This document shows, in pieces, positions 9,742 to 23,951 of a stretch of 64,000 nt of DNA. The number at the start of each line of letters is the position of its first letter. Position 1 is the first letter of the stretch. Below the pieces are notes generated by a model that did no database searches, had not been told where the DNA came from, and saw only the letters and a list, made by a program, of their open reading frames with translations. Source of the stretch: Rhodospirillales bacterium (GTDB lineage: Bacteria > Pseudomonadota > Alphaproteobacteria > Rhodospirillales > JASLLZ01); the NCBI GenBank assembly GCA_030754885.1, contig JASLZL010000021.1:1-64000 (forward strand), read 5' to 3'. The translations under genes and the position numbers were made by a program.

Positions 9742-9816
9742 GGGCGCGTAGCTCAGCGGGAGAGCGCTCGCCTCACACGCGAGAGGTCGCTGGTTCAATC
9801 CCAGCCGCGCCCACCA
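9742..9816 (+). tRNA. tRNA-Val (anticodon CAC)
   Basis: GGGCGCG-TA-GCTC..GAGC-G-CTCGC-CTCACAC-GCGAG-..-GCTGG-TTCAATC-CCAGC-CGCGCCC-A-CCA cloverleaf; CCA encoded. Confidence 0.95.
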
Positions 9817-9919
9817 TTTTAACCCTGGAGTATCAAGGGGTTATAGGCGGCTCCATCTTTCCAAAAACCATCGCAGACCAGACTGCTGCAACATTGGCAC
9901 AGTTAATGGGAGATTTGTG

Positions 9920-10903
9920 ATGGCTACCCTTCGCAAACGTGGAAGCAGATGGCACGTACAGGTCCGCCGCAAGGGATTTCCTTCAGTGAGCCGATCCTTC
10001 CAGTCGAAATCCAACGCCAAGGCCTGGGCACGAAACACGGAAGCCTCTATTGACCGCTACGACCTCCCCCGCAATTTTCGCTGTCTCGATACCCTTACCG
10101 TAGGCGACATTATCGAGCGATATCGCGATACGGTGACAATCAAGAAACGGGGCCGCAGGAACGAGATCATCATCCTCAATGCGCTAATTCGTCAACGCTT
10201 CGCAAGGTTGAGCCTGGCAGAAACTACACCCGACGTATTCAGCGCTTACCGGGATGCTCGCCTGCAGGTGGTTAAGCCGACCACGATCCGACGTGAGCTC
10301 TCCCTGCTGAAGCACGCCTTTGGGCTAGCTAAACGAGAATGGGGCATACCCTTGAAAGATAATCCGCTCGACGGGATCAGACGTCCTCCACCCGATCAGC
10401 CTCGGCAAAGACGTTTGAAAGATGGCGAACTGGCCCGTTTGCTTGAGGGATGCCAAAGGGGTCGGACGCTCCTACTTAGGCCCCTTGTCCAACTCGCAGT
10501 AGAGACCGGGATGCGACGGGGTGAACTTCTCAACATCCACTGGGAAGACATCAACTTCGAAAAACGGACACTTCGGATACCGATAACCAAGAATGGCCAT
10601 GCACGGACGATCCCTCTGACTTTGACAGCGATTTCAGTGTTGCGGGACCTTCCTCAGAATGGTGACGGCAGAGCCATTCCGACCACGGGCAACGCCATCC
10701 GATTGGCGTGGTGCCGCCTAACCAGGCGGGTAGGCATTGACGATCTCCACTTCCACGACCTACGACACGAAGCCATCAGCCGCTTCTTCGAGATGGGCCT
10801 GTCCGTGCCCGAGGTTGCCCTGATTTCGGGTCATCGGGATTACCGGATGTTGTTTCGGTATACGCATTTGAGGGCGGAGGATGTGGTGAAGAAACTCAAC
10901 TAG
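9920..10903 (+). CDS. Tyrosine recombinase/integrase
   Basis: MRRGELLNIHWED, HDLRHEAISRFFEMG and ISGHRDYRMLFRYTH catalytic boxes; GGGAG before ATG 9920. Confidence 0.93.
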   Translation: MATLRKRGSRWHVQVRRKGFPSVSRSFQSKSNAKAWARNTEASIDRYDLPRNFRCLDTLTVGDIIERYRDTVTIKKRGRRNEIIILNALIRQRFARLSLAETTPDVFSAYRDARLQVVKPTTIRRELSLLKHAFGLAKREWGIPLKDNPLDGIRRPPPDQPRQRRLKDGELARLLEGCQRGRTLLLRPLVQLAVETGMRRGELLNIHWEDINFEKRTLRIPITKNGHARTIPLTLTAISVLRDLPQNGDGRAIPTTGNAIRLAWCRLTRRVGIDDLHFHDLRHEAISRFFEMGLSVPEVALISGHRDYRMLFRYTHLRAEDVVKKLN

Positions 10904-10915
10904 CCCGGAGAATTC

Positions 10916-11566
10916 CTAATGTAAGGGGGATGGGTCCTCGACCCGGCCCATTGCCCCGAGACCAATCCGCCGAAGCTCTTTTGTTACGGCCATGATTGCG
11001 GTCAACATGGTCTCCACGTCCTTGGTGCTGAGCTCGATGATTTCACGGTAGTCGGCTATCGACATATCATCCTGATCCCGCTGCGGACCTTGAACACGTT
11101 CAGCCATTTCATCGGATCTGTCGGCAATATCCTTCAAACCGTCGAGAGCTTCTTCGAGGCTATTCGGAAGATTTTGATCCTCTCCGCTTCCAAAGAACCC
11201 CACCAGGAATCCGTCCCGTATTTCTTCCGCTCTCATGTGGAGAGCAGCCGTAACATCCTCCCATTCACGGAGCTTCTTCGGTTTTACCAACTTCACCACG
11301 ACACCGCCCTGATGCCGAGCCATGCGGTTCCACAAGCTCATCATTAGTTGGAAGAACTGTGAAGCCTCGTCCTCATTCTCAAACGTAGGGAAATTATCAC
11401 CCCAGAATGCATTGATCATTCTTGTGGGGCTTACACCAGGAATGAGACTGGCAATTCCACCCAGAAAACGCATCCGCACCACGTGGAACGGGGTTGGACA
11501 GTGGTATTTCTCCAGCAACTTTTGGAGAACTCGATCACCAGGATATTTTAGGTTCTGCCGTTTCAT
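10916..11566 (-). CDS. Hypothetical protein, weakly UPF0149/YecA-like
   Basis: 216-aa ORF convergent with the integrase; segments FFQLMMSLWNRMARHQ and IRDGFLVGFFG are reminiscent of UPF0149 helices. Confidence 0.5.
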   Translation of the reverse strand: MKRQNLKYPGDRVLQKLLEKYHCPTPFHVVRMRFLGGIASLIPGVSPTRMINAFWGDNFPTFENEDEASQFFQLMMSLWNRMARHQGGVVVKLVKPKKLREWEDVTAALHMRAEEIRDGFLVGFFGSGEDQNLPNSLEEALDGLKDIADRSDEMAERVQGPQRDQDDMSIADYREIIELSTKDVETMLTAIMAVTKELRRIGLGAMGRVEDPSPLH

Positions 11567-11640
11567 GCTTGTCGTAGCTTCGGGTGGTCGAACAGGTCAC
11601 CTTCAGTTATTTTACACGAATTGCATCGTAAGTGGGGACC

Positions 11641-11805
11641 ATGTCAGAGACACCTGAGACTCGCCTTCTCAAACTGACCGCCGTGATTGTGGCAGCCCAT
11701 GTCAGCAAGAACCCGACTTCCATCGACCAGCTATGCGATATGATTATGGATGCATTCGACAAAGAATACTTCGCAACCGTTCTGCGTGAGTGGGAACCTA
11801 AATGA
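11641..11805 (+). CDS. Small protein resembling the N-terminal domain of MucR/Ros regulators (no zinc finger)
   Basis: MSETPETRLLKLTAVIVAAHVSKNPTSIDQLCDMIMDAF... (54 aa) resembles the MucR/Ros LTA-IVAAYVSN region; below the ORF-track length cutoff; overlaps the next CDS by ATGA. Confidence 0.65.
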   Translation: MSETPETRLLKLTAVIVAAHVSKNPTSIDQLCDMIMDAFDKEYFATVLREWEPK

Positions 11806-12305
11806 ACCACCAGGTCACCTATTTACACTGTGGAGAACATCTCAAAGGGACTTTGAAGAGCGAAATGGATGAGGTGGTCCATATCGTGGAACTAATAGAG
11901 TGGGAGAGAGAATTCAAAGTTGGCAAATCAGGCTCAACACTTCTTCATCAAACTGCCTACAACAAGAGATTTGAGGCGGAATTCAAGAAGTTGGGGTGGG
12001 AAACGAAACCGATGTTGAGTCAGAGACCTCGACTAATAGGGGATTTTCGGAAAAACCTGGTGTTTGTGGAGGTCCAATTTGGAAACAGCGCAACCCTTTA
12101 TCGAGATTTTTATAAATTTCAGTATGGTCTCCAGAATGGACTTCTTTCACTGAGTGTCTTAATCGTACCCATCAATCCGAAGGAGTTCTTTCCCACTCGA
12201 CCTCGAAGTGTCAGCAACATGGCAGAGTATGATTTGGCACTTCGATATTTTTCTGTTCTGCCAATTTCAGTCCCTACAATGGTCATTGGTTTGCTTGCGA
12301 GTTGA
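11802..12305 (+). CDS. BglII-like type II restriction endonuclease (PD-(D/E)XK superfamily)
   Basis: GDFRKNLVFVEVQFGN matches the spacing of BglII catalytic D84-x8-E93-x-Q95 (DFGKRDTLVEVQFSN); similar C-terminal P-x-x-(L/V)-(V/I)-GL. Confidence 0.75.
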   Translation: MNHQVTYLHCGEHLKGTLKSEMDEVVHIVELIEWEREFKVGKSGSTLLHQTAYNKRFEAEFKKLGWETKPMLSQRPRLIGDFRKNLVFVEVQFGNSATLYRDFYKFQYGLQNGLLSLSVLIVPINPKEFFPTRPRSVSNMAEYDLALRYFSVLPISVPTMVIGLLAS

Positions 12306-12409
12306 GGGATCCTGTTGCGAAGAGTATCCAACCTATGAATTGATCTTGGGCCATAGATGCGTTGGGGTCACCATGGTAACAATCTCCTCTGACTTTCTCT
12401 CGATTGCTT

Positions 12410-12559
12410 GGGCACGACGGTGTTAAGGCCGTCGTTGCCGCCGAACAGTTCGACCAGCACCACGGTCCGATCCCAGCGGGCGTCGCCGAGGGGTGAACGG
12501 AAAGGTATCAGCGCCATGGGAAGCGCGCCGGCAAGGCTCAAGAAATGGCGGCGGTTCAC
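12410..12559 (-). pseudogene. DUF1501 family protein, N-terminal fragment
   Basis: GTG start, VNRRHFLSLAGALPM...RTVVLVELFGGNDGLNTVVP, then unrelated KQSRESQRRLLPW-stop. The intact copy at 21385-22596 continues NTVVPYSDANYHDLRP. Confidence 0.8.
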
Positions 12560-12570
12560 GAACCCTCTCC

Positions 12571-13983
12571 TCACTTGAGTTGAAACGCCGGATCGAGCAA
12601 CAGGCGGCGCTGGCGTGCGTGAGGCCCCTCGCCCGCGATCACCGGCACCGCTGCCGGTAGCGGCAAAAGCAAAGGCGCCAACCGGCCCGCCGGGGCAATC
12701 GCCGTCTTTTCCGCGCTTTGCCACACGTCGAGCAGGAAGGCGTGGCGCGCCGGCAGTGTGGCCGAGGTGATCCACGTCGTCCCTCCCGGCCATCCTCTGA
12801 CGTTGGGCGGGTCGAGAACGTCCTGGCCGAGCCGGCGGTTGAACGACGCCAACCAGCCCCTGTCGTCGGACCTGAGCTGCAACAGGCGCAAGGTGCCGAC
12901 GCTCAGGTCGATCGGCGATTTAACGAGGACACCACGATTGGCGGCGGCGCGGAATTGGGGTGAATTCAGAAGGCCCCTCAACAGCGGTCCAAGGACATGG
13001 CTCGAACGGCGGAATTGGGTGGCCAGCCGGTCAACCTCGGTGGGCGCCGGGGAAGGGGAGACGAAGACGCGCCATAGCTTCTCTGTGATGTGTTTGGCGA
13101 CGCGCGGCTCGTCGAGCACGATGTCGATGATGTCGTCGCCGGTGAAGCGGCCCCGGCGCCCCATGAAGGTCTTAATGCCGCCGTCGTGCAGGTCGCTGGC
13201 GAAGGTAAAGCCGCCACTCTCGGGATCGATCCGCCAACCGGTGAAGGCGCGGGCCGCCTCGCGGATATCGCCCTCCGTATAGCCACGGCCTTCGCCGAAG
13301 GTGAACAGCTCAAGGAATTCGCGGGCGAAGTTCTCGTTCGGATTGCCGGCGCGATTGGTCTGACCGTCGAGATAGAGAAGCATGGCCGGCTGCTTGGCCA
13401 CTTGGCGCAGGAGGTCGGCGAAATTGCCCGCCGCGTGGCGCCGGAACGTAGCGTTCTGGCGGTAGATGTAGGCCGGCCACTTGACCTGGCGCAGGGACGA
13501 GGGAAGGTGGTTGTGCCAAAAGAGGACGAGGCGCTCGGTCAACGGCGAGGTGGTCTCCAGCATTTCGCCGAGCCACCATTCCCGAAGGTCGCGGCCGCGC
13601 TCTCTCCTTCGTGCCCGCAAGGCCCGCTGCTCTGCCGCCGAGAGTGCCGCCCAAGCGGCGGGTGGCGGCGGCCTTTCCCCGACCCAGGGCGGCGGCGGCG
13701 TCATCGGTTCCCGGCGCAGGCCGCCGAGCAGGCGGTCCACCGCCGCCGTGTGATCGAGGGGCATCAGGGCGGTGACGCTGTCGACACTTGGCGCGCCGAA
13801 CCCGGTGCGGCTCAACAGATGGCGCGCCTCATCGAAGGTCAGGGCGTGGGCCGGCCAGCCGAGGGCCAGGACGAGGGCGAGGGACGCCACGGCGGCAGGA
13901 CCGAGCACGGGAAATCCCCAGCCCGCCCTGCCGCGCCGGGCGCCCGTCCGGCGCCCAGCGATAGTGTTTTGCCCGGCGAACAC
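12571..13983 (-). CDS. DUF1800 family protein
   Basis: ALTFDEARHLLSRTGFGAP...NENFAREFLELFTFGEG...PPNVRGWPGG; GTG 13983 start preferred because the upstream ORF extension is low-complexity. Confidence 0.85.
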   Translation of the reverse strand: MFAGQNTIAGRRTGARRGRAGWGFPVLGPAAVASLALVLALGWPAHALTFDEARHLLSRTGFGAPSVDSVTALMPLDHTAAVDRLLGGLRREPMTPPPPWVGERPPPPAAWAALSAAEQRALRARRRERGRDLREWWLGEMLETTSPLTERLVLFWHNHLPSSLRQVKWPAYIYRQNATFRRHAAGNFADLLRQVAKQPAMLLYLDGQTNRAGNPNENFAREFLELFTFGEGRGYTEGDIREAARAFTGWRIDPESGGFTFASDLHDGGIKTFMGRRGRFTGDDIIDIVLDEPRVAKHITEKLWRVFVSPSPAPTEVDRLATQFRRSSHVLGPLLRGLLNSPQFRAAANRGVLVKSPIDLSVGTLRLLQLRSDDRGWLASFNRRLGQDVLDPPNVRGWPGGTTWITSATLPARHAFLLDVWQSAEKTAIAPAGRLAPLLLPLPAAVPVIAGEGPHARQRRLLLDPAFQLK

Positions 13984-14006
13984 TAGGCCGCCCTCGCCGG
14001 GGCTTT

Positions 14007-14348
14007 TTATTTCCCTGCCGTGGCCACGATCTCGACTTGGAAGTCGTTGGCCAGGACCGCCTGGACGCAGGCGCGGGTCGGGCAGTTGTCGGGATCGACC
14101 CATTCCATCCACGCCTCCTGCATCTCCTCCCACTTATTCATGTCGGAGACATAGATCAGGGCGTTCAACAGCTTCGACTTGTCGGTACCGGCGGTGGCCA
14201 GATATTCGTCGATCTTGGCCAGAACCTGTTGGGTCTGGCCCTTCATGCCCTGGGTGATGTCGGGCGCCGTGCCGACGCACATCACCATTCCGTTGTACTC
14301 AACGATCTGGCTGCGGCCTGGGTTTCCGGGGGTGCGGGTAATAGTCAT
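14007..14348 (-). CDS. RidA (YjgF/YER057c/UK114) family protein, copy 1
   Basis: RidA fold: MTITRTPGNPGRSQIVEYNGMV...; ATG 14348 with upstream SD. Confidence 0.85.
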   Translation of the reverse strand: MTITRTPGNPGRSQIVEYNGMVMCVGTAPDITQGMKGQTQQVLAKIDEYLATAGTDKSKLLNALIYVSDMNKWEEMQEAWMEWVDPDNCPTRACVQAVLANDFQVEIVATAGK

Positions 14349-21384: not shown

Positions 21385-22596
21385 TCAGGCGATACAGCCC
21401 AACCCTTTTTCCTTTATAAAGTCGGCCTTCAGGCCCCACCATTCGCGGGCCGCCGTGGCGTAGAGGCTGCGGAAATGGAGCCTGTGCTTCAGGTTGCGCG
21501 CGACCAGATCGTCGAGGGGCGGCTGTTCGCCGTAGAAGCCGCCCCGCACCCGCCCGCCCATCAGGAAATGGGGCGCGGACGTGCCGTGATCGGTGCCGTC
21601 GCTGTCGTTCTCCTTGGGGCGGCGTCCGAATTCCGAGTACGTCATCACAAGCACCCTGTCCCAGTGCCCCTTGGCTTTGACAGTCTGGACGAAGGCGGCT
21701 AGGCCGTTGGCGAGTGAGGCCAGGAGTTCCGGGTGGTCGACCGACTGGCCGGCGTGGGTGTCGAAGCCCTTGATCGCCGTCTTGATGACCGGCACCGGGG
21801 ACGAGCTGACTATCAGGCGGGAGGCGATTTCCATTTGCTGACCGAAGGCATCTTCGGGAAATTCGGTGCCCAGTTCGACGTCCTCAAGGTGTTTTTCAAG
21901 GATCACCCGGGCGGCGTGACGGGCATCGGTCTGCACCCCCGTCAGGTGGGCCAGGGCGGGGTTCTCCTCGGCCATGGGAAGTTTCCGCATGCGCTTCGCC
22001 ACCTTCAACAGATTGGGATTGTTGAGGACGGCCGTGCGTATGTTCTTGCCCTTGACCGGGCCGATGGCGTTGCGCCCCAACACAACTGCGTCGGCGGCGA
22101 ACTCGGCCGGCGGGCGGGCCTCGGCAAAGAGCCTGGATATCCACCCCTCGGAAAGGAATTCGTTGGATCCGGACGCGGTGTCCCAAATGTCGATGGAACG
22201 GAAGTGCGAGAAGTTGGGTCCGGGATAACCAACGCCGAGCGCCACTGCCATCTGGCAGCTTTTCCACAGCGGCAGCAGGGGCTCCAAAAGCGAATTGAAG
22301 CCCAGGCGTTCATCCAACTGGATGACGTTCTCGCGTGCCAGGGCCTTGGTTGGGCGCAGATCGTGGTAGTTGGCGTCGGAGTAGGGGACGACGGTATTGA
22401 GGCCGTCGTTGCCGCCGGCCAGCTCGACCAGTACTAGGACCTTGTTCCAACGCTCGGTGTCCTCGAATGTGGGGGCTTGGCAGGCCGGTACGATGGGAAC
22501 GTCGGAAAAGCGCATGGCCTCGGTCGAGCGGCAGGCGGCGGGGAGCATCAACAAAGGCAGGCCGGCGGCGCGGCGGAGAAACTGTCGGCGGTTCAC
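21385..22596 (-). CDS. DUF1501 family protein (putative Tat-exported)
   Basis: VNRRQFLRRAAGLPLL twin-arginine-like N-terminus; VLVELAGGNDGLNTVVP; SEFGRRPKENDSDGTDHGTSAPHFLMGG. Confidence 0.85.
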   Translation of the reverse strand: MNRRQFLRRAAGLPLLMLPAACRSTEAMRFSDVPIVPACQAPTFEDTERWNKVLVLVELAGGNDGLNTVVPYSDANYHDLRPTKALARENVIQLDERLGFNSLLEPLLPLWKSCQMAVALGVGYPGPNFSHFRSIDIWDTASGSNEFLSEGWISRLFAEARPPAEFAADAVVLGRNAIGPVKGKNIRTAVLNNPNLLKVAKRMRKLPMAEENPALAHLTGVQTDARHAARVILEKHLEDVELGTEFPEDAFGQQMEIASRLIVSSSPVPVIKTAIKGFDTHAGQSVDHPELLASLANGLAAFVQTVKAKGHWDRVLVMTYSEFGRRPKENDSDGTDHGTSAPHFLMGGRVRGGFYGEQPPLDDLVARNLKHRLHFRSLYATAAREWWGLKADFIKEKGLGCIA

Positions 22597-22607
22597 GGGG
22601 CTCCCCT

Positions 22608-23951
22608 TCACTTCAGTTGGAACGACGGGTCAAGCAGCAAGAGCGCCAGTCGTTGGCGGGAACGCGCCGTCTCCTCGGGCGGCGTCACCGGCGCGACGGC
22701 CAGCAACAATTCCATCAGGTCCTCGTCGCCGCCGTCGGGCATCGCCACATTCATCGTGCCGCCGCGCGCGACGCGGTTGAGGAACTGGTGGCGCAGCGGC
22801 AAGGTATTGGTGGTGACCCAGGCCTCGCCGCCCGGCCAGCCCTTGACGTTGGGCGGTTGGAACAGGTCCTGGCCCAGCCGACGCTGAAAGGATGTCACGT
22901 TGCGGGGTTCAAGGCCGGGGTTTCCCAGTACGCGCAGGGTGCCGACCACCAGATCGACCGGCGACTTGATCATGGTGCCCGGGTTGTCGGCGGCGCGGAA
23001 CTGGGGCGTTGTCAGCAGGCCTTTCATCAACGGGCGAAGTTCGTAGCCCGAATTGCGGAAGGCGGCGGCCAGGCGGCTTACCTGTCCCGGTTCGGGCTCG
23101 GCTGAGACGAACTCGCGCCACAGCTTTTCGGTAATGAACTCGGCGACGCGTGGTTCTTCGAGCAAGATATCGATGACATCGTCACCGCTGAACCGGCCCT
23201 GGCGCCCAAGGAAGGATTTGGTCCCGTCGTCGTGACGTTTGGGGTCAAAGACGAAGGTGCCCTTGGCGGGATTGATGGACCAGCCGGTAAAAGCCCGCGC
23301 CGCCTCGACAATGTCGTCTTCGGAGTAGCCCCGGCCCTCGCCCAAGGTGAAGAGCTCCATGATCTCACGGGCGAAGTTCTCATTCGGGCGGCCTTTGCGG
23401 TTGGTCCGTCCGTCCAGATAGATGAGCATGGCCGGCCCCTTGGCCATGCCGCGCAGCAGTGTGGCGAAGTTGCCCAGTGCGTGATGCCGAAAAAGGGCGT
23501 TCTGGCCGTACATATACCCGGCCCATTTGACCTTCTTGACCTCGGAAACGAAGTGGTTGTGCCAGAACACGACGAGGTGCTCGGTCAGGGGTGACGGGGT
23601 GGCCAACATCTCGCCCGCCCACCATTGCTTGAGCGGCTGCCACCGGGTGCGTGTGGCCTTGTTGAATTCCACACGTTGGGCCGCCGTCATCGCTTTCATT
23701 TCCTTGGAAGTCGGCGGCAACTCATCAATCCAGGGCGGCGGCGACGTTGCCGGTTGGGTGCGCACGCCGCCGAGTACGCGATCCACCGCCGCCTCGTAGT
23801 CGAGCTGTTGCAGGGCTGCAACTTCGGCGGCCCTGGCGATGCCGAATCCGGTGCGGGCCAAAAGGTGCCTGGCTTCTTCGAAGGGCACGGCGCCGGCCGG
23901 CAAGGCAAAAATCAGCGCGGCGAGGAATGAAACGACGCGGGTCTTACTCAT
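22608..23951 (-). CDS. DUF1800 family protein
   Basis: PFEEARHLLARTGFGIA...NENFAREIMELFTLGEGRGYSE...PPNVKGWPGG. Confidence 0.88.
   Translation of the reverse strand: MSKTRVVSFLAALIFALPAGAVPFEEARHLLARTGFGIARAAEVAALQQLDYEAAVDRVLGGVRTQPATSPPPWIDELPPTSKEMKAMTAAQRVEFNKATRTRWQPLKQWWAGEMLATPSPLTEHLVVFWHNHFVSEVKKVKWAGYMYGQNALFRHHALGNFATLLRGMAKGPAMLIYLDGRTNRKGRPNENFAREIMELFTLGEGRGYSEDDIVEAARAFTGWSINPAKGTFVFDPKRHDDGTKSFLGRQGRFSGDDVIDILLEEPRVAEFITEKLWREFVSAEPEPGQVSRLAAAFRNSGYELRPLMKGLLTTPQFRAADNPGTMIKSPVDLVVGTLRVLGNPGLEPRNVTSFQRRLGQDLFQPPNVKGWPGGEAWVTTNTLPLRHQFLNRVARGGTMNVAMPDGGDEDLMELLLAVAPVTPPEETARSRQRLALLLLDPSFQLK

Follow-up and report, generated by a model that had tools for sequence, protein, structure and literature searches.

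Gene content between tRNA-Val and the DUF1800 gene

The window, a 64,000-nucleotide stretch of a Rhodospirillales genome, carries a minus-strand glmU gene and a tRNA-Val (CAC) gene; the tRNA is followed by a foreign segment and then by the minus-strand DUF1501 and DUF1800 genes. The comparison genome was G001, a Rhodospirillales MAG (Arabian10_MAG_36), the sole same-genus genome compared, in which the region is rearranged. A scan of genome contigs gave matches only in G001 and in one Betaproteobacteria locus. The features are as follows.

9742..9816, plus strand: tRNA-Val (CAC), the target gene, the 3' half of which is the surviving attL (ARAGORN; body identical to the tRNA of the empty G001 site)
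9765..9818, plus strand: expected core, from the anticodon stem to CCATT, with a putative extent taken by analogy with 50–65 bp repeats in loci L073, L076 and L083
9817..12409, no strand: foreign segment (island remnant), 2,593 bp (single copy in the genome, absent from G001 contigs C148 and C68, composition)
9917..10903, plus strand: complete tyrosine recombinase (integrase), 327 aa from the ATG at 9920 (PF00589, E 5.7e-29)
10916..11566, minus strand: 216-aa protein (weak UPF0149 / PADLOC candidate PDC-S12 match)
11641..11805, plus strand: 54-aa open reading frame, profile match resembling the ROS/MUCR N-terminus (below cut-off), overlapping the next start
11802..12305, plus strand: BglII-like restriction endonuclease, 167 aa (PF09195, 34 bits, cut-off 26)
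12306..12409, no strand: last 104 bp of foreign sequence, with no attR-like repeat and no significant match to the G001 flanks
12368..12559, minus strand: DUF1501 remnant, consisting of 50 native codons (12559–12410), 13 foreign codons and a stop
12571..14133, minus strand: open frame with the DUF1800 gene, the partner of DUF1501 (89% identical to the G001 ortholog over 333 aa)

The GC content of the foreign segment was approximately 47–59%, compared with approximately 62–70% in its surroundings. An integrase of the phage-integrase family lies near one edge, and no match to it was found in G001 at 1e-40. At the corresponding glmU/tRNA-Val site of G001 (L023 3555–3629, contig C68), the tRNA body is identical and other chromosomal sequence follows directly after the CCA. 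Because the window parts from this empty site immediately after the CCA, the left boundary was placed exactly at the tRNA 3' end. The earlier note had proposed that the tRNA-Val/DUF1800 locus be compared with that of an island-free relative; in G001 the tRNA-Val site (C68/L023) was indeed empty and DUF1501 (C148/L015) intact, allowing for the rearrangement of that genome.

The truncated DUF1501 gene and the ancestral gene order

On the right side, the DUF1501 gene starts with a GTG at 12559, and its first 50 codons are intact. The match to the G001 ortholog (L015 8217–9368) was nearly unbroken until ...GTCGTGCCC and ended exactly at nt 12410, at codon 50/51, and the truncation previously placed at about nt 12410 is accordingly confirmed to the nucleotide. 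Past this position, the frame continues for 13 codons of foreign sequence and stops at 12368, reading KQSRESQRRLLPW; in other words, the translated frame (12559–12368) is VNRRHFL...LVELFGGNDGLNTVVPKQSRESQRRLLPW followed by the stop. The G001 ortholog is intact (383 codons), adjoins the same DUF1800 gene and goes on as NTVVPYTDPEYHRL. The part lost from the window therefore amounts to approximately 1.0 kb, or 333 of 383 codons (87%). An intact copy with a different continuation had been described in the earlier note, and such a copy exists, but it is a paralog within the window (22596–21391, minus strand), which reads NTVVPYSDANYHDL and is approximately 55% identical to the G001 ortholog. Two DUF1800/DUF1501 pairs are thus found in the window, one broken (12410–13911) and one intact (21391–23901).

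A search for the missing DUF1501 portion, which the same note had recommended, found neither this portion nor the TPR gene behind it in the assembly of the window's own genome (G000); this supports loss, with the reservation that absence from an approximately 95% complete assembly is no proof. Translocation of the missing part to another place was rejected, as the genome search returned just the paralog at 21.4 kb. An approximately 80 bp repeat (ggctgtcccagataacccatttggggggttatc...) is common to the ends of many G000 contigs (for example, C29, C103, C10, C4 and C92) and probably represents an insertion sequence present in many copies, at which the assembly broke. The surviving 50 codons showed 94% amino acid identity to G001, with a dN/dS of approximately 0.21 calculated from very few sites; the values between the window and G001 were approximately 0.27 for DUF1800, 0.19 for glmU and 0.17 for prmA. 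The identity and dN/dS of the remnant are compatible with a recent truncation and prove little more. The titles and abstracts examined on DUF1501/DUF1800 and degenerate islands held nothing specific.

Behind DUF1501, G001 contains a gene that matches TPR weakly, a second copy of tRNA-Val (CAC) and a fragment of an M23 peptidase gene, and its glmU and first tRNA-Val lie on a different contig from DUF1501/DUF1800. An amidohydrolase-like gene is reciprocally split in G001, its pieces being adjacent in relatives, and an intact M23 peptidase gene, the two halves of which match the two G001 contigs back to back, is present on G000 contig C94. It is thus G001 that has been rearranged; a rearrangement in the window's genome, considered from the position of glmU in G001, was rejected on account of the intact peptidase gene. 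The reciprocal rearrangement (L015 11465–11608, L023 4201–4202) is located near the two tRNA-Val (CAC) copies of G001. Few genomes of the order (7 of 317) have homologs of the amidohydrolase-like gene, and in the other loci retrieved these homologs do not neighbour tRNA-Val. When the event in G001 was undone on paper, the order became glmU, tRNA-Val, ..., DUF1501, DUF1800, colinear with the window. G008, from another family of the order, has DUF1800–DUF1501, uvrD, prmA, tRNA-Val (CAC) and glmU within approximately 12 kb. In G001, the distance from tRNA-Val to the DUF1501 break is approximately 3.8 kb (summed from coordinates).

The missing attR and islands of the same integrase family

The 27-nt tRNA 3' end plus TT had a single occurrence in the window with up to three mismatches allowed. 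With the 29-nt version, a genome-wide search gave one other place, a normal tRNA-Val (GAC) gene in a neighbourhood that is syntenic in G001. Within positions 12251–12560, no ungapped alignment resembled the core more closely than shuffled sequence did. The reported absence of attR, or of a second tRNA-Val 3' end, at the right edge was borne out in this way, the genome-wide search proposed for it included. Two candidates were rejected. A degenerate attR at 12371 (CACCAT..TAAC, compared with the tRNA end CACCATTTTAAC) is short and lies within what shuffled sequence gives, and what follows it has no match in any G001 flank. A displaced attR in the form of an exact second tRNA-Val 3' end on contig C111 proved to be the ordinary tRNA-Val (GAC) gene, which has the same downstream genes in G001. 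This contig truly lacks attR, and as the tRNA 3' end is not directly repeated at the far edge, the segment was filed as a decayed remnant rather than an intact island.

Of the 317 genomes of the order, 77, about a quarter (own genome counted), encode this integrase or a relative of it, and att repeats are now supplied for this family, an unsurprising addition. Among 30 loci scanned, including that of the window, a tRNA gene lies approximately 80–130 bp from the integrase in 20, and its 3' end faces the integrase in 18. The integrase relatives at L059 and L060 lie beside the 5' end of an opposite-strand tRNA instead of the 3' end. In the L073, L076 and L083 islands, exact direct repeats of 50–65 bp, running from the tRNA to CCATT, mark the far end. 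No attR repeat was found in four of seven integrase relatives for which approximately 17–18 kb was searched, and islands of this family are therefore not always cleanly bounded. Because complete islands of the family can be as small as approximately 3.2 kb, the known 2.6 kb remnant may be nearly the whole island.

Origin of the right junction and comparison with known systems

We regard the following history as probable on the sequence comparisons. A small integrase-bearing island would have entered the chromosome at the tRNA-Val (CAC) 3' end, downstream of glmU, and a later deletion, starting inside the island or at its right end, would have crossed attR and any chromosomal sequence beyond and entered the convergent DUF1501 gene at codon 50/51, taking attR and most of this gene with it. 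The integrase is complete, but an island without attR should no longer excise, and the island is probably fixed in place. The order of the two events (integration first), the deletion mechanism and the immobility of the island are what we infer from this arrangement. The earlier note had argued for integration at tRNA-Val followed by deletion; integration and the subsequent loss of attR and 87% of DUF1501 are well supported, whereas the loss of other cargo that it also proposed is only a possibility.

An alternative history, to which we assign a small but appreciable probability, is that DUF1501 had already been cut, by a deletion or insertion of independent origin, when the island arrived, and that the right end of the island decayed separately or the events merged. 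A single genome does not reveal which event came first, and the segment from tRNA-Val to DUF1501 is itself unstable in G001, containing the second tRNA-Val, a truncated amidohydrolase-like gene and a rearrangement breakpoint. However, the foreign sequence directly abuts DUF1501, so that two events need an extra coincidence, and the identity and dN/dS of the remnant's 50 codons, few as the sites are, give no sign of long decay. A misjoin by the assembler at 12410, bringing the left portion of a larger island up against the DUF1501 flank, is unlikely: G000 is fragmented (131 contigs), with many contig ends in the shared repeat, and lacks the 3' part of DUF1501, but there is no misleading repeat at 12410, the region 9817–12440 has no other copy except for a 31-bp match of approximately 90% at the DUF1501 paralog, and the flanking gene order on both sides agrees with the ancestral order. 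Errors in att-site choice are known for tyrosine recombinases, and the integrase here is complete; nevertheless, recombination by the integrase with a secondary site inside DUF1501 is a very improbable source of the junction, given that no core-like sequence, direct or inverted, exceeds the shuffled range at 12410 and that the cores of this family are 50–65 bp long and exact in three relatives.

The endonuclease matched PF09195 above the cut-off, but no cognate methyltransferase was found in the island, and the window's genome contained no PF01555 match and no N4/N6 methylase gene. Each of four endonuclease homologs in other families directly follows a methylase gene, and the one methylase tested belongs to PF01555. 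Loss of the methylase with the right-end deletion was rejected: in the homologs the methylase precedes the endonuclease, on the side away from the break, and the right-end break therefore does not explain its absence. Selection for attR loss, locking in the methylase-less endonuclease, the activity of which is only predicted, as a stably inherited gene with DUF1501 loss as collateral, appears extremely improbable. Compared with BglII-type restriction-modification pairs, the window protein shares the PF09195 domain and a D...E.Q pattern with its homologs but is unpaired and shorter (167 versus 244–271 aa).

The closest comparisons are the intact islands of the same family, L076 at tRNA-Val (GAC), L083 at tRNA-Val (CAC) and L073 at tRNA-Arg, which resemble the window in integrase family, position relative to the tRNA and CCATT. 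They possess exact attL/attR repeats 3.2, 12.7 and 12.5/16.5 kb from the integrase start, respectively, whereas the window has no such pair. With genomic islands that tyrosine recombinases insert at tRNA 3' ends (P4-like or integrative-element type), the window shares an integrase approximately 100 bp inside the tRNA 3' end, a restored tRNA at the left, lower GC content and defence-type cargo; unlike them, it has lost its right end with attR, and the break cuts a chromosomal gene. The segment is a degenerate example of a familiar type of element, a case of ordinary island decay, and the genus-level comparison suggests, unsurprisingly, how an island at a tRNA gene can be fixed in place when its far att site disappears along with host DNA.
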